A stretch of 53,921 nucleotides of DNA. Source: Dysgonomonas sp. PH5-45 (GTDB lineage Bacteria; Bacteroidota; Bacteroidia; Bacteroidales; Dysgonomonadaceae). The stretch's first letter is position 1. Every line of letters begins with the position of its first letter. Position numbers and translations under genes: made by a program. Positions 21,952 to 30,978 of the stretch are shown here, one piece after another. The notes under the pieces were generated by a model. The model worked only from the letters and a program-made list of their open reading frames with translations, did not search any database and was not told the origin of the DNA. The stretch lies in assembly GCF_029893235.1 (NCBI RefSeq), contig NZ_JARXWE010000020.1:1-53921 (forward strand), given 5' to 3'.

Positions 21952-23994
21952 TTATGGTATAGCCGTAACTTTATTTTCTTGACCAGAAAGTAACTGACCT
22001 ATAACCGTACCATCCGCTGTTACGATTTTACTGATCTCTCCCGCACCAGATCCGCTAGCAACATTTAATATACCATAACCTGTACCATTTAGATAATCCC
22101 GTGTGCATCCTGTCCATAGCACCAACTCAGATATAAAACTGAATCTAGGATTAACGGCTTTGATATTTTTGCTGTCTTGTATATCCAATTTCTTTAATAA
22201 GATACCTCCATAATTACTATTTTCAAATTCAATTTTCTGCAAAGCTTTATTTCCTAAGGCACTTACATTTGATATCTCAATTTTATCACCTTTTTTAGAA
22301 TAAGAAGAAGCCTTAGCAGTATTCGCGGCAAAGATCAAGTTAGTAAGTTTCGCATTATTCTCTATATTCAGAGTTTCAATTTTACAATCGCGTATAGTCA
22401 ATGTCTCAATATTATTATTTGATAAATTGAGTTCCGGAATAGTGATACTTGCATCATTTGGCATAGGTACTTCGGTCAATCCGCAATTCGACATATTTAA
22501 TGTACCTGTTATGGTAACTGCCGCCAAATTTATTTTGTTAGTTCCTCCAAACTCTGTAATCCTTGTATTCGATACATCCAAATTTTTAATAGTAGCTGCG
22601 CTACCAAACTTCAGAGTTGTTAAAGCCGTATTGGAAAGATTTACTGTACCAAGATTTATTGTACTATAGAATTCTACTGTGTTAAGTTTCGCATTTTTAG
22701 ATGCATCAAGGTCACTACCACCGGTAGCATCCTCAACAGTAAGTTTTGTTATGTTCTCAAAATACTCAAGGCCAGTGAAATCGGTTGTTTTTACCGAACT
22801 ATTCTTAACCGTTAAAGAGGTTTTTGATAATAGATCAGCTTTAGTAACCGCACCTGTCAACCACCCCGCAGCAGCTAAAAGATCAGCACTAATTACCGAA
22901 CGATAATCATTCAGTTCCGGCAGATAGCCAGGAGCATTTTCGGTCCAATTGCTTACTCTAACGCTGAAGTTAATTTCTTTACCCACTTCGTCACCAAATT
23001 CGAGGTAGAAGTTATATTGGCGTCCCATTTCGAAAGTTATAGGCTCGCTTACATCCGAAGGATCGTTCACAGCAAAGTATTTCTCCGCGCTTTTTGTTGC
23101 TGTACCCGCATAGTATATACCGCCAGCAAATGCTTTGTAAGATACTTTTACAGCAAACTTACCTGTACCAGGCACAGTTTTTCCATCTCCGTCATATTTT
23201 GTAGTTGCTTGTGGCAATACCATTACAGCGTTGGTTTGTCCCAATACCGAAGCATAATCGTTAAGCAAATACGCAGGCGATTCGCCTCTGTCTACAGCAT
23301 AGGTTTTAAAACTTGATTGGTCAGTCCATGGTTGACAAGGATAAGTCAAACTATTTTCCTCTGGAATACCAGATAGATTAAGAGTCCCTGTTTCATTCAG
23401 GTTAACCAACTCTACTTTGTCGATAGTGTATGTAACATTTTCTTGAGTAGTCCGTGCAAAGAACATCACACGCGAAAGAGCGTGGTGAAAGTTTAACACA
23501 ACAGGATCTGTTCCATTCGTTCCTCCATTTTGTTGCATAGATCTTGCCACAAGGAAGTCTTCCTGCGCATCTTTGTTGCTGATTTGCGGAACAGTATAGG
23601 TAATAGATTTGGCTGAGGTATAGTCTGTTATACCAACTGTTACATTTTTAGACGAAGAAGGGCTGTAGGCATAGAAGTCAATCTTTTCTCCTTTTGGCCA
23701 ATAACGTTTTGGATTGTAGTTCCATTTACCGTCTTCACCGCGTGTAATGCCCTCTCCATTGAAGAGGTATTCTCCATTGTAGTCACCACCGGTTCTTATT
23801 CCGGTAAGGGTAAAACTCAGGATACTTGTCTCGTCAGTGATTGCCGTACGCAAATTAGACGATGGTTTATCCATCAGTGTGCGAAACTCTATCGCACCGT
23901 CGCCTGCACCTGCAGAACCGCCTAAATCCTCATCGTTAGAGCAAGAGGCAAAGACTAAAGCTATTGCCGAAGCAAATAAAAATAATTTTTTCAT
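21952..23994 (-). CDS. Fimbrillin-domain lipoprotein with C-terminal leucine-rich repeats
   Basis: 680 aa. Lipobox FASC (Cys18). Residues about 30-350 form a fimbrillin region: KRYWPKGEKIDFYAYSPSS, EDFLVARSMQQ, VVLNFHHALSRVMFF, AVMVLPQAT, TFEMGRQYNFYLEFGD and VRVSNWTENA. After a linker (about 355-390) comes a leucine-rich-repeat-like region of about 250 residues: LEYFENITKLTVEDA, NAKLNTVEFYS, TLKFGSAATIKNLDVSNTRI, TLNMSNCGLTEVPMP, IPELNLSNNNIETLTIRDC, IETLNIENNAKLTNLIFAAN and LKKLDIQDSKNIKAV. LRRs bind proteins or glycans, so the molecule may be a pilus-borne adhesin. It sits second to last in the operon, between the DUF5119 and fimbrillin genes. Confidence 0.88.
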   Translation of the reverse strand: MKKLFLFASAIALVFASCSNDEDLGGSAGAGDGAIEFRTLMDKPSSNLRTAITDETSILSFTLTGIRTGGDYNGEYLFNGEGITRGEDGKWNYNPKRYWPKGEKIDFYAYSPSSSKNVTVGITDYTSAKSITYTVPQISNKDAQEDFLVARSMQQNGGTNGTDPVVLNFHHALSRVMFFARTTQENVTYTIDKVELVNLNETGTLNLSGIPEENSLTYPCQPWTDQSSFKTYAVDRGESPAYLLNDYASVLGQTNAVMVLPQATTKYDGDGKTVPGTGKFAVKVSYKAFAGGIYYAGTATKSAEKYFAVNDPSDVSEPITFEMGRQYNFYLEFGDEVGKEINFSVRVSNWTENAPGYLPELNDYRSVISADLLAAAGWLTGAVTKADLLSKTSLTVKNSSVKTTDFTGLEYFENITKLTVEDATGGSDLDASKNAKLNTVEFYSTINLGTVNLSNTALTTLKFGSAATIKNLDVSNTRITEFGGTNKINLAAVTITGTLNMSNCGLTEVPMPNDASITIPELNLSNNNIETLTIRDCKIETLNIENNAKLTNLIFAANTAKASSYSKKGDKIEISNVSALGNKALQKIEFENSNYGGILLKKLDIQDSKNIKAVNPRFSFISELVLWTGCTRDYLNGTGYGILNVASGSGAGEISKIVTADGTVIGQLLSGQENKVTAIP

Positions 23995-24045
23995 TTCGAT
24001 AATTTAGTTTATTAATAATTAGTGTATAATATTTATGTTTGGGGT

Positions 24046-25029
24046 TTATAAATAGACATCAACATTGTCCCAGTCGCCAACCCCGACTTCAAATCCACCA
24101 CCAGAGTCGGGATTCTCTCCTCCCGGTTCCGGGATTTCCGGAATTTTAGTATTGTCTATAAGTATATCATATCCGTCTTTTTGCAGTTTTGCCTCCCTAT
24201 CGGCCATCGATTCGCTTATTTGCCCCGATACGTCCCAATAGGCGGTATAATATAAATTTGCTTTAGAGAGTATTTCTATCGTAAATCTGTTCTGATAGGG
24301 ATACACAGGGCCGAAAGTGTAGAACGAGCCTTCTATATAACCCTTTCCGTTTTCGTCGACCCCTACGGTGGCTTTCTCGAACAAAACGGTAGATCGTTCG
24401 GTGGTTAGCTTGTCGGTCTGGAAAAAATATGTGGCAGCCATCCCCGAAGCAGCCCCGCGAGCCTCGCTTATGTTTTTTGCCCCCGATATATTATTAACCC
24501 GGTAGGTAAACTGGCGAAGCTTATTTTTTGGGTAAAAGTTAAGAATCAGAGTATCTCCACACTCATCGCAAAATACAACGTCGAAAGTTTCTTGCCACGA
24601 ATGCGCAAAGAAATCGCCGCCGGGGTCTTCTATGGTCTTTTCTCCTTCCACGGGTGTAGCCAGTTCTTTGTAGGTCTGGCGCGAAGCTTCGGCACAATAT
24701 GCCTGAAACGTACCGAGCGCGGTTTCGTTCCTGAAATGTACATTTGTTTTGTAATAATCGTAACAGAACGGAATATAAGACGCTCCACCAACAAGTTCAA
24801 TTATACTTTCGCCGCTAATGGGGATGCTATTCACTCCGTAATCGCCCACACCGCCAGTCACAGAAAAAATATTCATCCGCATAGCACGGGTATCCGATTG
24901 TTTTTCCCAATTCACAACCACCTTGATGGCTACATCCCCTTCCGCGCACAAGCCCGCGTCACACAGACTCTTGTTTTCGCAAGAAATCGTGACTAAAGCT
25001 AATATGAACAGGAACAGAATATTTTTCAT
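24046..25029 (-). CDS. DUF5119 family lipoprotein (Mfa2/FimB-like fimbrial subunit)
   Basis: 327 aa with lipobox TISC (Cys17). NWEKQSDTRAMRMNIFSVTG (about 40-59) and the paired Cys of CDECGD (about 170-175) fit the DUF5119 group. Such proteins travel with DUF3575 and fimbrillin genes and resemble the Mfa2/FimB anchor subunits that fix the pilus base and limit its length. The last 30 residues are acidic and Pro/Gly-rich. Its ATG overlaps the stop of the DUF3575 gene by 4 bp (ATGA, 25026-25029), implying translational coupling. The anchor role is inference from context. Confidence 0.85.
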   Translation of the reverse strand: MKNILFLFILALVTISCENKSLCDAGLCAEGDVAIKVVVNWEKQSDTRAMRMNIFSVTGGVGDYGVNSIPISGESIIELVGGASYIPFCYDYYKTNVHFRNETALGTFQAYCAEASRQTYKELATPVEGEKTIEDPGGDFFAHSWQETFDVVFCDECGDTLILNFYPKNKLRQFTYRVNNISGAKNISEARGAASGMAATYFFQTDKLTTERSTVLFEKATVGVDENGKGYIEGSFYTFGPVYPYQNRFTIEILSKANLYYTAYWDVSGQISESMADREAKLQKDGYDILIDNTKIPEIPEPGGENPDSGGGFEVGVGDWDNVDVYL

Positions 25030-26348
25030 CGTTGGTTCTCCTTTCCTTTATTTTTACCGAAAACGTTGCCTATGAGCCACACCAGCGAAATATTGGCTTT
25101 GGTGAGCCCTATATAATTTCTTTGGTGGGTACTTTTCCATGGGAAGATACATTCATCGCATGCGCCAACAGTGTATTTGTAGTATTTTCCGCCAAAGTAT
25201 CCAGCTCCGATTCCGAATTCGAGGTTAAATCTTTTGGCTATGGATATGGCATATCCGAATGTCAATCCACCCGAATAGCTCCAGTTGCTTAGCTGCCCCT
25301 CGTCGCTGTTTTTGTTTGTAAACAGGCGGATATCGTAAGTGCCTCCGTATCCGTAAGCTCCTACAAACCATCCGTTCAGTGGCTTGCCTGTTCTGTTTCC
25401 GAACCAGCGGCGCATCTCCACTCCGGCTATCTGTATGCGGTGGTAATAGTAGTTGCTGGCATTGGTGTTCCACCACGACCAGTTTCCTTCTATCCCTACC
25501 GACCAGTTGTAATTGCGCCCGAAAGGGATTTCAACGGCCAGATTGGGTAATAACGCGGCATCGTAAAGCAGGTTACTTTTGACAGCCATAACGAATGGGC
25601 GTCTCTGTTTTTCGGGACAAACCGTGTCTACCCGAACCACTACCCTGTCTACGAAAACGGTATCGAAACGGAATATTTCCACTGTATCGGTTTTGGCAAA
25701 GCGTTCGTCTTTCTTGGTATATATCGTACCGGTGGCACTTCCCCGCAAATGTGGCAATATATTTTTCAACAAATATCCGTAAGGCTTACCCCTGCCTATT
25801 TTCATTATCCTCAGCTTTTTGCTTTCATCACTCAGGTTACTGTTGAGTATGTAGAGCAACTGACTGCGGGCGGGCACATCCTTGTCTTTTTCAATCATTT
25901 CTTTAAGCCCGTCCCAATCTTCGGCATGGGGAAGCATTATAACCTGATTATCTTTTATTCGGGGATTTATTTGCATTATGTAGTTTCTGAGCGAAAGTGC
26001 CCTTTCTTTGGCTAAGCGTTGGTTATTGTCGAAACCACCTTCGGGCGATGCCGTACTGGTTATGACTATGAAATCGTCTTTTTCCAACGTTTTTTTGGCA
26101 AATATTTTCTTTATAAGACTCAAAGTCTTGGCATTACCCATATAACCGCTGTCTATTTCCGTTCGGTTTACACGATAATAGATACGCACGGTTTCGGAAG
26201 AAGGTACGCCAAAAGTCTGTTTTGTGCCAGTATTTGCTGTATTCAGGGAAACTTCAACAAACGCGCTACTCGGAGCAACTGTCGAGGCTTCTAAGGAACC
26301 TGCAACATAAATAATTCCACACCAAAACAGAAACGTTCTCCGGAACAA
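25026..26348 (-). CDS. DUF3575 outer-membrane protein with OmpA-like N-terminal half
   Basis: 440 aa if started at TTG 26348, the only in-frame initiator before the hydrophobic segment FLFWCGIIYVAGSLEA. The reading frame is open to 26594, but the operon promoter (26444-26474) lies inside that stretch, so the longer form is excluded. Residues about 30-130 resemble an OmpA-type region (VRIYYRVNRTEID, VITSTASPEGGFDNNQRLAKERALSLRNYI). The C-terminal half is a DUF3575 barrel (VMAVKSNLLYDAALLPNLAVE, WSVGIEGNWSWW, GAYGYGGTYD, LEFGIGAGYFGGKYYKY). In Bacteroidales such genes open fimbrial operons; the protein may help anchor pili in the outer membrane. A close ATG (26369, minus strand) is out of frame, so either a TTG start is used or a small frameshift has occurred. 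Confidence 0.82.
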   Translation of the reverse strand: MFRRTFLFWCGIIYVAGSLEASTVAPSSAFVEVSLNTANTGTKQTFGVPSSETVRIYYRVNRTEIDSGYMGNAKTLSLIKKIFAKKTLEKDDFIVITSTASPEGGFDNNQRLAKERALSLRNYIMQINPRIKDNQVIMLPHAEDWDGLKEMIEKDKDVPARSQLLYILNSNLSDESKKLRIMKIGRGKPYGYLLKNILPHLRGSATGTIYTKKDERFAKTDTVEIFRFDTVFVDRVVVRVDTVCPEKQRRPFVMAVKSNLLYDAALLPNLAVEIPFGRNYNWSVGIEGNWSWWNTNASNYYYHRIQIAGVEMRRWFGNRTGKPLNGWFVGAYGYGGTYDIRLFTNKNSDEGQLSNWSYSGGLTFGYAISIAKRFNLEFGIGAGYFGGKYYKYTVGACDECIFPWKSTHQRNYIGLTKANISLVWLIGNVFGKNKGKENQR

Positions 26349-26759
26349 CCGTAGAATTTCATTTTTTGAGAAATTCGCTTTTTTATCTATAATAATACTG
26401 TAAATAAATTTGTGTATCAATTGCCAATTATGTAAGTATGACACAAAAGTATTCAAAATAAAGCAAACGACAAAAAAAACTTTCAAAAAATATGTATTCA
26501 GCCTAATATAATCGAGTTTATAACCTACTTGAGCATCTATAATATCAAACTGTAACATACTGAAAAACAGAAATAAATATACATTTTGAAGCAAGGCGGA
26601 AAAATCGCAAAAAAATTATGCCACAAATCTCAATATTGACAAAAAAAATGCAGAGATTTAAAATATAAGAGGAAGTTATTCGTCCTTAAAAGATATAGAG
26701 AGGGTTTTCTTTCTTCCGATTGATTTTTTTAGTAACTATGACAATAAAATAAATAGAAA
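26349..26759. other. Divergent intergenic region, fimbrial operon and sigma-factor unit
   Basis: AT-rich, about 410 bp. It holds the fimbrial promoter. In front of the rightward His-rich gene I see no TAnnTTTG box, which would fit a promoter read by an alternative sigma factor such as the one encoded in that unit, but absence of a box is weak evidence. Confidence 0.45.
26444..26474 (-). promoter_or_regulatory. Promoter of the fimbrial operon
   Basis: Minus strand: TTTG (26474-26471), 19-nt spacer, TACTTTTG (26451-26444). Both boxes and spacing match the Bacteroidetes consensus. It places the start of transcription near 26438, about 90 nt before the TTG start of the DUF3575 gene. Confidence 0.65.
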
Positions 26760-27128
26760 ATGAAAAAAGAGATGAAAAAATGGCATAAATTGGGCTTCGC
26801 TCTGTCTTTTGTTGCAATATTTGCCGCGGCTGCGGCTGTGGTGATGTTATTGTGGAACGCGCTTATCCCTTCAATTGTTGGATGGACGGAGATAAATTAC
26901 TGGCAATCGGCAGGGTTAATGCTATTGTGCCGCTTGTTGTTTAGCGGGTTTCGTCCTCATGGGCATCGCCACAAGCACTCGCATAAGCACCAAAAGCATA
27001 TGCATCTGCACGAAATGATGCGCGATATGTCGCGCGAGGAACGCCGCAATTTTATCCGCGAACGTATGGGTAAAGACTTTAATGGTAGAGAAAATGCCGC
27101 CGCAGAGCAAGACCATGAAAAAGGATGA
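26760..27128 (+). CDS. Small membrane protein with a His-rich metal-binding-like segment
   Basis: 122 aa. Two hydrophobic helices (about residues 11-34 and 44-62) are followed by HRHKHSHKHQKHMHLH (about 69-84) and a charged helix, EMMRDMSREERRNFIRERMG. The positively charged N-terminus (MKKEMKKWHK) predicts both ends in the cytoplasm. Its last 4 bp overlap the start of the ECF sigma factor (ATGA, 27125-27128). That is the layout of a membrane-bound anti-sigma or sensor with its sigma factor, and the His cluster suggests Zn, Ni or Cu as the signal. No anti-sigma domain such as ZAS or FecR is visible; the role is inference. Confidence 0.75.
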   Translation: MKKEMKKWHKLGFALSFVAIFAAAAAVVMLLWNALIPSIVGWTEINYWQSAGLMLLCRLLFSGFRPHGHRHKHSHKHQKHMHLHEMMRDMSREERRNFIRERMGKDFNGRENAAAEQDHEKG

Positions 27129-27703
27129 AAACAGAAAACCTTGAAAAGAATCTGAAGCATAACAAAGAGGTAACCGAAATATACCAAAAATACAATTCTC
27201 CGCTAAGAGGGTTTATTGCTAAGCGGGTTCCTTCGAAGGAAGATTGTGAGGATATTTTGCAAAATGTTTTCTATCAGCTCAGTAAAACGGATTTCGAGAC
27301 AAATCCTATCGAGCAGATTTCGGGATGGCTCTACTCTGTGGCGCGAAACCAGATTATAGACCGTAGCCGTAAACATAAAGAGCAGGAATTGCCTTACGTT
27401 ATCAACGATAACGACGAGGCGGTTTTCCTGAAAGAAATTACCGAAACGATACTCGATTCGGATTCGCCCGAAACCGAATTTCTCAAATCGTTGGTTTGGA
27501 AAGAGCTGGAGGTAGCACTCGGCGAACTTCCTCCCGAACAGCGGAGTGTGTTTGAGTTGACCGAATTGGAAGGTTTTTCCTTCAAAGAAATCTCCGAAGC
27601 AACGGATATTGGCGTAAATACCTTAATTTCGCGGAAGCGTTATGCTGTATTGCATTTACGCAAGAAACTGTATGAACTGTACGAAGACTTATTGTCCGAT
27701 TAA
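27125..27703 (+). CDS. ECF-type RNA polymerase sigma factor
   Basis: 192 aa. Region 2 (about residues 17-85) reads YQKYNSPLRGFIAKRVPSKE, EDILQNVFYQL and ISGWLYSVARNQIIDRSRK. Region 4 (about 127-180) reads LGELPPEQRSVFELTELEGFSFKEISEATDIGVNTLISRKRYAV, with the usual helix-turn-helix. It directs RNA polymerase to a special promoter set, probably on a membrane-borne cue. It overlaps the His-rich membrane protein gene by 4 bp, and the next gene is on the other strand, so these two form a unit. The sequence is longer at the region 2-4 linker (DSDSPETEF) than in FecI-type sigmas, and no FecR gene follows. Confidence 0.93.
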   Translation: MKTENLEKNLKHNKEVTEIYQKYNSPLRGFIAKRVPSKEDCEDILQNVFYQLSKTDFETNPIEQISGWLYSVARNQIIDRSRKHKEQELPYVINDNDEAVFLKEITETILDSDSPETEFLKSLVWKELEVALGELPPEQRSVFELTELEGFSFKEISEATDIGVNTLISRKRYAVLHLRKKLYELYEDLLSD

Positions 27704-28020: not shown

Positions 28021-28353
28021 TTATTTTCCTTTTCTCATGCGGAATACCGCATACCCTACCGAAAGCAGAATGAAAGAAATTACAGGAATTTCTCCTATTG
28101 GTGCTTCGCCTTCACCAACACCCATATCAGCATCGCCCTCTTGACCTTCAGTACCGCTGCCGGGACCACCACCTCCAGGGCCAAACCTATAATTAAGATT
28201 CTCATTATAATAGGCATCAGACGTTGGCTGATCGGTAGCAATATTCTGGTTATAATAATCATCCGCGGTTGAACCGTATGTATCCTTTGCCGAAATCTGA
28301 CCTAAAGGAAGAAAAAGCAACGCAATCAAATACAATAATATAGTTTGTTTCAT
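28021..28353 (-). CDS. Small exported Gly-rich protein with C-terminal sorting-signal-like tail
   Basis: 110 aa. A signal peptide (about 1-22, ending ISA) leads to a short mature region with two similar repeats (ADDYYNQNIATDQ, SDAYYNENLNYR). A GPGGGGPGSG linker and an acidic stretch follow. The tail is PIGEIP, a hydrophobic helix (VISFILLSVGYAVF) and RMRKGK. A short motif, a helix and a basic end is the three-part plan of C-terminal cell-surface sorting signals. Many Bacteroidetes encode a small protein with such a PxG-type tail directly after a large exported protein. Here it follows the T9SS cargo gene by 49 bp on the same strand. Function unknown. Confidence 0.75.
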   Translation of the reverse strand: MKQTILLYLIALLFLPLGQISAKDTYGSTADDYYNQNIATDQPTSDAYYNENLNYRFGPGGGGPGSGTEGQEGDADMGVGEGEAPIGEIPVISFILLSVGYAVFRMRKGK

Positions 28354-28402
28354 AATATATTCTTAGTGTCTTTTTATGTGTGTTCTGTTCGTTATAAATA
28401 AA

Positions 28403-30640
28403 TTATTGTACTAAAAGCTTCACAGTTTTGGCATTAGCACCTGTTGTCTTAATCAGATATACTCCCGGTACCAAATACTGATTAACGTAAACAATGTTGT
28501 CGTTTATCTTAGCTTGTCCAATCTTCGATCCCTGAAGGTTATACAGATATAATTCATTTCCAAAATCAGCTTGTGCAAAACCTTTAACTGTTACCCTTGA
28601 TTCATTGTAATAAGCATACAGCGCTTGTGTTACATCTTCTTCCATACCCATCTGTTTTGTGAAGTGCACTACAAAACGGTCTTCACGATCGGTTGGTGTA
28701 GAGTGTGTTTCGTATGGGGTTTCGGGTGTCAACTCCACCATAACGTCCATCAATCTATCTTCGAGCCAAATACCTTCAGCTTCTTGTTTAGATTCTAACC
28801 TGTAGCAAGAAATTACAATATCTTGCTCCACTGCCGAAGGTGTATCATAAAGCATTACCGATTTTTTGGTTTCTAATGGTAAAAATTCCCCAGTTAAGGC
28901 AACTCCTTCAGAGTTACGTGTATATATCTGGCTTGCGGTGCTTTGTAGAATATCAGTTTTGGTAGAACTTTTCATCATTCCGCTTTTTTCATTAACCTCA
29001 GCACTTGATATCATGCGCTCCACATCAGAGTAATTTCTATCAGCTATTTCCTTAGCTGTACGGAGTACCAAACTTACACGGTCTATAGTTCCTGTTTCTT
29101 TATCTCTTATTTCTATAATAAAGTCATCTTTACGTTGTTTTTTCTTTTCAGAGCGCCAGAATGCTACATCTTTGCGTTCTTTTGCTTTTGCGGGTATTGT
29201 CATTGTAGGAGTAGCATCCTCTACCCAGATACAAAACATTTGAAGAGGAGCTATAATATCATCAACTACTGTACCTCCCGTTCCTGCACCATAAAAATAG
29301 TTATATGTATACAACATAGGAGTATCTATTTTGGCTTCCTTTGGCTTAGCATTTGAGTTTGGAGCTAAAACCCAATATTGGGCATAAACATGTGGAGCAT
29401 CATTCTCTTTTTCACTAATCTTTACACCCCAATCCGAATTCACAATTGCACTTGATATTGTTAAATCCGTCAAGTCGATAGGCGTAGTGTATGGGTTAGA
29501 CAAGAAGTTATATCCAGGTCTTAATTCTATACCTCCAACATCTCCGGTATTTAAATTTTCATCATTATAGCCTGCCCCAGAAGCACCAAACATATTATTA
29601 TATTTACGTACACCATCCGTAGAGAAACGATTACGGTTGAAGTAATGACCTTTGTGTGCCCTGGCATTAAATCTGTCTGTAAGTATCCCTCCAGTATCGT
29701 CATTGGGGAGACGATAATAAGTAGTATCAGTACCACGCAAGTCAATGCCCAAAACATAACCTCCACCAGCAGACAATTGGTCATTTGGGTTAGTTATATG
29801 GGTCTTACCCATGTACCCTTCCGGGGTTGGCATAAACAATGTATTATACATAAAATAGTCTGCTCCTAATTTCTCATAAGGAGATCCTAAACCCACTATA
29901 CTTTTACCCGAATCATCCCCTGTTACAGAATTTATTAGAGGATCAGGATCCCCTTCACTGGTTACAGCTAATCGCACTTCAACCGCACCACGGTCTGCAG
30001 GCGTTCCAGAAGTTCTATTATAAGTTGCAGATTTCACATTCAAGTGAGCTAAAACAGTTTCGTCATTATTAGCTTTCTTTTTTGAGTTTAGTATAAGCCA
30101 ACCTTTTTCTAAGTGCAAATCATCAACATCCATAGCGATATTAGAACTAACTACCACATGTTTGTTGTTATTAACTTCAACATCAGGAAAAGCAATATAA
30201 TTTGTCTCTTTTGAAGGATATGCGCCTGCTGCACGAGTTGTTGTAATGCGTTGTTCGGCATTTCCGGCAAAAACGAATTTACCTGTAATATCATTAGGGT
30301 TAGCAGGTAGTGTAAATAAGGTCTTATGCAAAGACGCTTCGGTCGTATTCACATTGTTAATAAAATCGCCTGTTAGTATAGTCTTACTATATCCAACCAT
30401 TTTAATATTACAGGAAGTTTTGTCGGCATTTTGTCCGGCAACGAAACTACCTTGTATGTACATAGTCCCTTTGCCTGTTGGAGAGTTCACATCCGCAACA
30501 GCCATCTTCCCTTCGTTATAGAAAACAATGGGAGGGGTATCTGCAGGATTACTTCTATCATGTCCATCTGATAACTCTTGTGCGAAAGAAAAACCGCAAA
30601 AAAGGAATGAGCTTACTAAAAAGAGTAATGTTTTCTTCAT
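28403..30640 (-). CDS. T9SS type A sorting domain-containing surface protein
   Basis: 745 aa from ATG 30640 (MKKTLLFLVSSFLFCGFSFAQ, clear signal peptide); an upstream in-frame Met lengthens the protein but weakens the signal. The long central region (about 25-560) has no domain I can name; it contains beta-rich text such as TMYIQGSFVAGQNADKTSCNIKMVG and AFPDVEVNNNKHVVVSSN. The last 65 residues carry the T9SS type A C-terminal domain (LYLYNLQGSKIGQAKIN, QYLVPGVYLIKTTG, KTVKLLVQ), which directs export by the type IX system and surface attachment. PorW, a T9SS component, is encoded at 37367-41047. It is cotranscribed with the small tail protein. Confidence 0.88.
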   Translation of the reverse strand: MKKTLLFLVSSFLFCGFSFAQELSDGHDRSNPADTPPIVFYNEGKMAVADVNSPTGKGTMYIQGSFVAGQNADKTSCNIKMVGYSKTILTGDFINNVNTTEASLHKTLFTLPANPNDITGKFVFAGNAEQRITTTRAAGAYPSKETNYIAFPDVEVNNNKHVVVSSNIAMDVDDLHLEKGWLILNSKKKANNDETVLAHLNVKSATYNRTSGTPADRGAVEVRLAVTSEGDPDPLINSVTGDDSGKSIVGLGSPYEKLGADYFMYNTLFMPTPEGYMGKTHITNPNDQLSAGGGYVLGIDLRGTDTTYYRLPNDDTGGILTDRFNARAHKGHYFNRNRFSTDGVRKYNNMFGASGAGYNDENLNTGDVGGIELRPGYNFLSNPYTTPIDLTDLTISSAIVNSDWGVKISEKENDAPHVYAQYWVLAPNSNAKPKEAKIDTPMLYTYNYFYGAGTGGTVVDDIIAPLQMFCIWVEDATPTMTIPAKAKERKDVAFWRSEKKKQRKDDFIIEIRDKETGTIDRVSLVLRTAKEIADRNYSDVERMISSAEVNEKSGMMKSSTKTDILQSTASQIYTRNSEGVALTGEFLPLETKKSVMLYDTPSAVEQDIVISCYRLESKQEAEGIWLEDRLMDVMVELTPETPYETHSTPTDREDRFVVHFTKQMGMEEDVTQALYAYYNESRVTVKGFAQADFGNELYLYNLQGSKIGQAKINDNIVYVNQYLVPGVYLIKTTGANAKTVKLLVQ

Positions 30641-30978
30641 TGTGTATATTTTTTGTGTTATATTCAGTAGCAAACGCAACACACCACTATCTTGCTCATT
30701 TAGAGCAAATAAAGTATGTTGCAGTAATAATTAATCGTCTTTTCAACTTTATTTTATACATTTTATCACTAAAACTTTAGGCTCTGTGACCTACTCTCAA
30801 ATCGAGGCAAAGATAAATATTTTTTTTTATCCGCTATATTTATTTTCTTTTTTATGCGTCTTTTTAACCTTTGCTATTTTATATTTATATTTATAGCCTC
30901 AAGTACTCTTCACAGATACAAAATAACAGAAAGGATTACTGAAAAATAATGGAACGACATCGCCTCTTTGCTTTTGGA
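30641..30978. other. 338-bp intergenic region upstream of the T9SS cargo gene
   Basis: No gene seen. Contains a minus-strand -7 box at 30807-30815, giving a long leader of about 160 nt, and long T/A runs around 30821-30900. Confidence 0.5.
30807..30815 (-). promoter_or_regulatory. Bacteroidetes -7 box of the T9SS cargo operon
   Basis: Minus strand TATCTTTGC (30815-30807), exact consensus, 167 bp before ATG 30640. No TTTG at -33 spacing. Confidence 0.5.

Follow-up and report, generated by a model that had tools for sequence, protein, structure and literature searches.

A conserved unit of an ECF sigma factor and a small membrane-hairpin protein, a candidate sigma regulator, behind a shared promoter motif

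The window, that is, the whole stretch of 53,921 nucleotides of Dysgonomonas sp. PH5-45 that was analysed, carries a short operon in which the gene of a small membrane protein is followed by that of an ECF sigma factor, with a promoter-like element in front (Table 1). The two frames share 4 bp (27125-27128), as stated in the preliminary description, whose assignment of the downstream gene was borne out by matches to Sigma70_r2 and Sigma70_r4_2 above the Pfam cut-offs and to TIGR02937 above its NCBIfam cut-off. The sigma profile matches the structures of SigH, SigW and RpoE, and the product consists of sigma2 and sigma4 with nothing else large. The small protein contains 11 histidines, nine of which (residues 67, 69, 71, 73, 75, 77, 80, 82 and 84) form the cluster noted previously, spanning 18 residues and not about 16; residue shuffling of the protein reached nine histidines in 18 residues in 0 of 20,000 trials. 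Reverse-strand genes flank the pair (21952-26594 and 28021-30682 of the window), several of which look secreted by eye.

Table 1. Features of the operon, in window coordinates.
Feature	Position	Strand	Remark
ECF-type promoter-like element	26657..26684	+	exact family dyad, 75 nt before ATG
Gene of small membrane-hairpin protein, 122 aa, ATG start	26760..27128	+	proposed sigma regulator, anti-sigma candidate
His run, residues 67-84 of the 122-aa protein (9 His)	26958..27011	+	variable linker, not conserved
C-terminal helix DMSREERRNFIRERMG, residues 89-104	27024..27071	+	M[ST]xEExxxF motif, conserved
Gene of ECF sigma factor, 192 aa, ATG start	27125..27703	+	sigma2 + sigma4

Genomes were searched for the small protein at E ≤ 0.001 with a single sequence or a profile; the phyla of the relatives are inferred, and many relatives are metagenome bins. 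One scan of GTDB genomes for relatives yielded 61 loci, and the single-sequence search found the protein in 11 of 41 relatives' genomes. With the profile, it was recovered from 28/198 genomes of the window's order, from 71/295 sampled genomes of its class and from 47/296 of its phylum, some of the latter being common to the class search. Other orders of the same class gave 100/161 in one case and 9/12 in a third order. Matches were also obtained in 13/99 genomes of the phylum of the Acidobacteria locus, 21/120 of that of the Spirochaetes locus and 11/369 of the class of the Rhodocyclales locus. Among these last 11, two exceeded 100 bits, one being the centre itself, and two others lay at 36-44 bits, the remainder being repeat or other proteins. 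The weak matches L177-L184 in this class were judged by eye to be repeat-type or other proteins and were discarded as family members. A further search gave 14/118, with most rows repeating places and scores of the phylum search and thus not independent.

After removal of 14 of 356 loci lacking a small protein over 40 bits and of 33 duplicate copies, 311 distinct small proteins were left, and a sigma gene was present in the fetched locus for 303 of them. All 303 pairs lie on the same strand, none on opposite strands, and 298 are within 200 bp of each other, the gap sizes being approximate as gene starts were picked by rule. The order is small gene before sigma gene in 47 loci and the reverse in 256. 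Eight small proteins are without a sigma gene, and three of their loci (L043, L087, L094) break off less than 250 bases away on the side expected to hold it. As the loci were selected via the small protein, these counts start from it and not from the sigma factor. Conservation of the neighbourhood, proposed earlier as a check within Bacteroidales, was found to extend beyond that order and into several phyla. Judged from these neighbourhoods, we conclude that the sigma factor and the small membrane protein are a conserved two-gene unit in several phyla.

Named isolates with the pair include Dysgonomonas spp., Hylemonella gracilis, Curvibacter, Pantoea dispersa and Burkholderia arboris, the Pantoea small gene being annotated as "hypothetical protein". 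One genome (G020) belongs to the same family as the window genome, and its small protein (L003) is the same as that of D. macrotermitis (L012). A plasmid search with the window's small protein returned nothing at E ≤ 0.01 and is insensitive, since relatives were found beside sigma homologues on one Pantoea and one Burkholderia plasmid record. One genome has two neighbouring copies of the small protein (L258 and L280, G1440 contig 12), the second being preceded by an 18.1-bit match to the promoter motif described below.

The family core consists of a membrane hairpin and an M[ST]xEExxxF helix, with the conserved order AVVMLLWN...P, YWQA..GL..L.RILFGGF, variable linker and M..EER.EF; M90 is kept in at least 90% of the A1 family members. 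An M[ST]xEExxxF-like motif is present in 177/303 small proteins and 6/303 sigma factors. Two hydrophobic segments were detected in 263 of the 303 proteins, one in 23 and three in 17. The AlphaFold model of the window protein, which is of moderate confidence (pLDDT 78, pTM 0.34), has four helices, including residues 2-41 and 47-62 and a C-terminal helix at 92-120. The two-helix membrane protein described previously is, hence, supported by the family and by the model; a plain hydropathy scan of the window copy shows a single hydrophobic stretch because its second segment is weak. K+R residues number on average 1.6 ahead of the first segment, 0.2 within the loop and 4.25 in the 20 residues that follow the second segment; among the 280 proteins that have at least two segments, 275 have more K+R in this last stretch than in the loop. 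From this charge pattern, both termini are predicted to be cytoplasmic, with a median of 4 residues before the first segment and a C-terminal tail of median 61 residues.

No Pfam or NCBIfam family was matched by the window protein at cut-off; an MFS_1 match fell below it and was set aside as membrane-helix bias. Among the 67 A1 members, to which the Pfam run was confined, DUF3106 was the commonest match at E ≤ 0.01 (3 members), followed by Metal_resist, MFS_1 and others with one member each, and five NCBIfam families were matched by one member each. No anti-sigma domain appeared among these Pfam and NCBIfam matches, in agreement with the earlier statement that no known one is visible, and the Hx3Cx2C zinc motif occurs in 0/303 family proteins. 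DUF3106 and Metal_resist, matched by the tails of a few members (3/67 and 1/67), are periplasmic families, a likeness that would contradict a cytoplasmic tail. Foldseek returned no match for the small-protein model, which is weak evidence given the pTM of 0.34, and a PDB sequence search revealed no relative (best E 0.15).

The element in front of the window operon consists of TAAA at 26659 and CGTC at 26681-26684, separated by 18 nucleotides. The TAAA-N18-YGTC dyad lies upstream of 137/296 operons; other spacings from 14 to 22 occur 1-10 times and the reverse strand gives one. A relaxed core, A[AG]T[AG]-N15-YGTC, which the window contains as AATA-N15-CGTC from 26662, was found in 182/296 upstream regions, with at most 14 for other spacings and 3 for the reversed pattern. 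By phylum, it was present in 6/6 Pseudomonadota, 6/12 Acidobacteriota and 11/19 Spirochaetota regions, and it was seen by eye upstream of the Pantoea and Burkholderia operons as well; it is absent within 200 bp of 114/296 operons, some of which have a site farther upstream. As far as upstream regions can tell, one core promoter geometry is common to four phyla.

A 34-bp position weight matrix (PWM) built from 134 instances reached at least 11 bits on the right strand in 181/296 upstream regions and on the wrong strand in one. The window element, itself one of the instances, scores 20.3 bits; the next-best site within the 53.9-kb window reaches 11.0 bits, and three shuffles gave at most 11.0 bits. 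In the 2.65-Mb window genome, the strict pattern has a single exact match, at the window operon, and a backwards control pattern matches twice. The housekeeping -7 box TAnnTTTG, already described as missing, was absent from 26561-26759, and the suggestion of autoregulation made on that ground gains support from the conserved ECF-type dyad present, by sequence, before the window operon. That the pair retains one promoter geometry in different phyla is the strongest argument for control of the operon by its own sigma factor, and we infer that the sigma factor reads the CGTC motif in front of it. For Flavobacterium, PMC9723704 describes an ECF motif containing a CGT box, in passages that do not tie the CGT-box motif to this pair.

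What the sequences show, namely the pair and its conservation, the charges from which the topology is predicted, the common promoter motif and the linked targets, is consistent with an autoregulated ECF sigma module in which the small membrane-hairpin protein most likely holds the sigma factor inactive, a reading that we regard as probable. With its near-obligate linkage and no known anti-sigma domain in 67 members, the small protein qualifies well as a candidate sigma regulator of an unrecognised kind, probably an anti-sigma factor. The sigma factor would transcribe its own operon, as well as a small number of linked genes in other species, from promoters of the form TAAAATAT-N14-CGTC. As an inner-membrane hairpin with both ends in the cytoplasm, the small protein would bind and inhibit the sigma factor, most likely holding it inactive at the membrane by its C-terminal helix, and envelope, redox, metal or protein-folding stress would release it. 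In direct coupling analysis (DCA) of small protein against sigma factor, scores were above 13 global shuffles and 11 of the 25 top pairs fell in the C-terminal helix (26/98 columns); clade-controlled shuffles with clade-aware mutual information gave no clear or stable contact block.

The PWM at 14 bits or more found 274 sites on the operon strand and three on the opposite strand in the 303 loci. Same-strand sites lie within 220 bp upstream of the operon (193), farther upstream (22), downstream (57) or inside (2). At the 21 far-upstream sites whose following frame was inspected, this frame encodes a 4Fe-4S ferredoxin in 13 cases and a soluble protein bearing M[ST]xEE-type motifs in five. Small membrane proteins follow 46 of the 57 downstream sites (mem88 36, p89 5, mem95 5); the rest precede Hsp20 (2), a 77-residue protein (1), other products (7) and nothing (1), and one of the seven others (L105) is Hsp20 by eye. 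Hsp20-like genes also occur further along the downstream operon in several genomes, and one copy tested was Hsp20 by Pfam. In Burkholderia, a ferredoxin-like frame follows the pair by eye. Three loci (L005, L015, L019) show a Dysgonomonas-type order of promoter, ferredoxin and/or micro-protein, small gene and sigma gene. A single-helix micro-protein of 36-49 residues lies directly before the small gene in these three and in L002; none was found in the window. One promoter-linked membrane protein (L051) has a metallothionein-like Cys/Gly tail (CGCGCGCGCNCGCGCG...).

Across whole genomes, the strict pattern was not enriched, with 22 exact matches in 8 genomes and 21 for the backwards control, so that unlinked regulon members are uncertain. 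Of the sites read in these 8 genomes, six lie before the sigma/small-protein operon, three before a linked membrane gene, two before an unlinked HMA-like gene by eye (L393 and L396, in G120 and G1223, with the motif 32-43 bp in front) and nine elsewhere. A conserved 154-residue membrane protein (LHSL.RW...) is encoded at two further unlinked loci (L390 and L397, in G1244 and G1199), with the motif 11-21 bp upstream.

An M[ST]xEExxxF-like motif was found in 12/76 promoter targets and 2/574 control ORFs, counts that are not independent as the targets are mutually related. By target group, it was seen in 4/5 p89, 3/5 soluble proteins, 3/36 mem88, 2/9 unassigned targets and 0/13 ferredoxins; of the two control ORFs with the motif, one shares its locus with the soluble protein and the second resembles p89. 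A common binding partner is one possible reason for this sharing. It could also mean that the small protein is itself a sigma-dependent effector, for instance a membrane-protecting or chaperone-like one, with the sigma factor controlled transcriptionally or by another protein. The co-motif genes encode small membrane proteins alike in layout and partly in an M[ST]xEE(R/Y)xxF helix, the small gene sits between promoter and sigma gene wherever it comes first, and the small protein has no known anti-sigma domain. Against this alternative stands the near-obligate sigma linkage in both gene orders, while the other linked families occur in at most 50 loci each, and we consider it unlikely.

According to the preliminary description, the histidine-rich protein may be a sensor for Zn, Ni, Cu or Co controlling the sigma factor. 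The window copy, with nine histidines in 18 residues, and the family linkers, with 7.4% histidine, point that way, as does the Cys+His content per 20 residues, which is higher in the small proteins than in 574 control ORFs (p = 1.3e-15), the controls including doubtful ORFs and the small proteins being mutually related. An HMA-like gene (71-77 residues) adjoins the pair in 50 loci, L364-L368 included, 38 of them in one order; its representative has a predicted ferredoxin-like fold (pLDDT 91) with copper chaperones as nearest structures (best E 3.4e-4, TM about 0.8). Together with the 4Fe-4S ferredoxin linked in 13 loci and the weak Metal_resist match of 1/67 members, this makes a metal or redox role possible.

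The histidine run is, however, no family feature, and conserved metal-ligand residues were not found. The maximum number of histidines per 18 residues ranges from 0 to 9 across the 303 proteins, being 0 in 9, 1 in 83, 2, the commonest value, in 87, 3 in 52, 4 in 35, 5 in 21, 6 in 10, 7 in 2, 8 in 3 and 9 in the window protein only. In 231/303 homologues it is at most 3, and 51/243 extracted linkers are devoid of histidine. CxxC is present in 0/50 HMA-like proteins and a DCD motif in 40/50 (45/50 members were aligned). Although the small proteins are richer in Cys and His, those of the promoter's targets that are small membrane proteins do not exceed the controls (p = 0.30), and the presence of Hsp20 in the linked set suggests protein stress too. 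The metal reading, resting on the histidine run, was consequently dropped as a family trait, and we hold it to be quite improbable, although the window copy itself may bind metal; what survives of the proposed anti-sigma factor or metal sensor is the candidacy as a regulator, given near-obligate linkage and no known domain. That the two genes are unrelated chance neighbours in a short operon, short overlaps between unrelated genes being generally common, is barely conceivable in view of the 303/311 linkage, same strand throughout, in both orders and in several phyla.

The pair thus appears to be an unnamed, widespread ECF sigma/membrane-protein module, with evidence from sequence comparison that is strong for autoregulation and good but indirect for a regulatory role, probably that of an anti-sigma factor. 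According to passages of PMC7406223, a class I anti-sigma factor is encoded near just 6% of the ECF sigma factors of Bacteroidetes. For the control of the others, the small membrane protein, present in 71/295 sampled genomes of the class and sigma-adjacent at almost all loci, is a direct candidate, and by means of the common promoter motif both the regulon and the trigger could be tested in genera that can be cultured. More tentatively, and in our view less likely than not, the module may be a single cross-phylum one, combining an ECF sigma factor, one old geometry (AATA-N15-CGTC), a membrane-hairpin anti-sigma factor of a new class and a helix recurring in products of its own promoter. If so, the regulator could face competition for the sigma factor from the M[ST]xEExxxF products, or these could share its partner, and this would set the response. 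The module would then, in some lineages, watch a membrane-proximal metal, redox or folding state, as hinted by His- or Cys-rich linkers, the HMA-fold protein, ferredoxin or Hsp20.

Among the matches listed in the literature search, no title or abstract concerned the pair, the ECF reclassification (gkaa1229) lying outside that search; one article (PMC9104464), on CydP, proved a false lead. The DUF3106-like proteins encoded near sigma genes in the class of the Rhodocyclales locus resemble the family in having W..MSPEER repeats and, at five of the weak loci, a sigma homologue in the same locus. They are longer repeat proteins without the hairpin core, and the match covers nothing but the tail (about 15-25 bits); DUF3106 is matched at E ≤ 0.01 by 3/67 members and not by the window protein.

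The module resembles the class I systems RpoE-RseA and SigW-RsiW in its adjacent genes, membrane partner and ECF-type promoter before the operon. Unlike these, it shows no anti-sigma domain in 67 members, neither ASDI nor ZAS, and Hx3Cx2C in 0/303; where they have an N-terminal anti-sigma domain, it has two membrane segments followed by a tail at the C-terminus. In class II, CnrY binds via an N-terminal segment before one membrane helix. The small protein has a very short stretch before its first segment (median 4 residues) and its tail is C-terminal (median 61), in contrast to CnrY, so that an N-terminal sigma-wrapping segment of the CnrY/NepR type was not found. The likeness to CnrH-CnrY-CnrX of Cupriavidus, which responds to Co/Ni (passages of PMC7406223), lies in a short membrane protein adjoining an ECF sigma factor. 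Membrane regulators of ECF sigma factors in Bacteroidota, as cited in PMC12596196, are alike in phylum and in being membrane regulators; by the cited title they span both membranes, whereas the protein described here would be a hairpin of about 120 residues and is set apart from them by that description.
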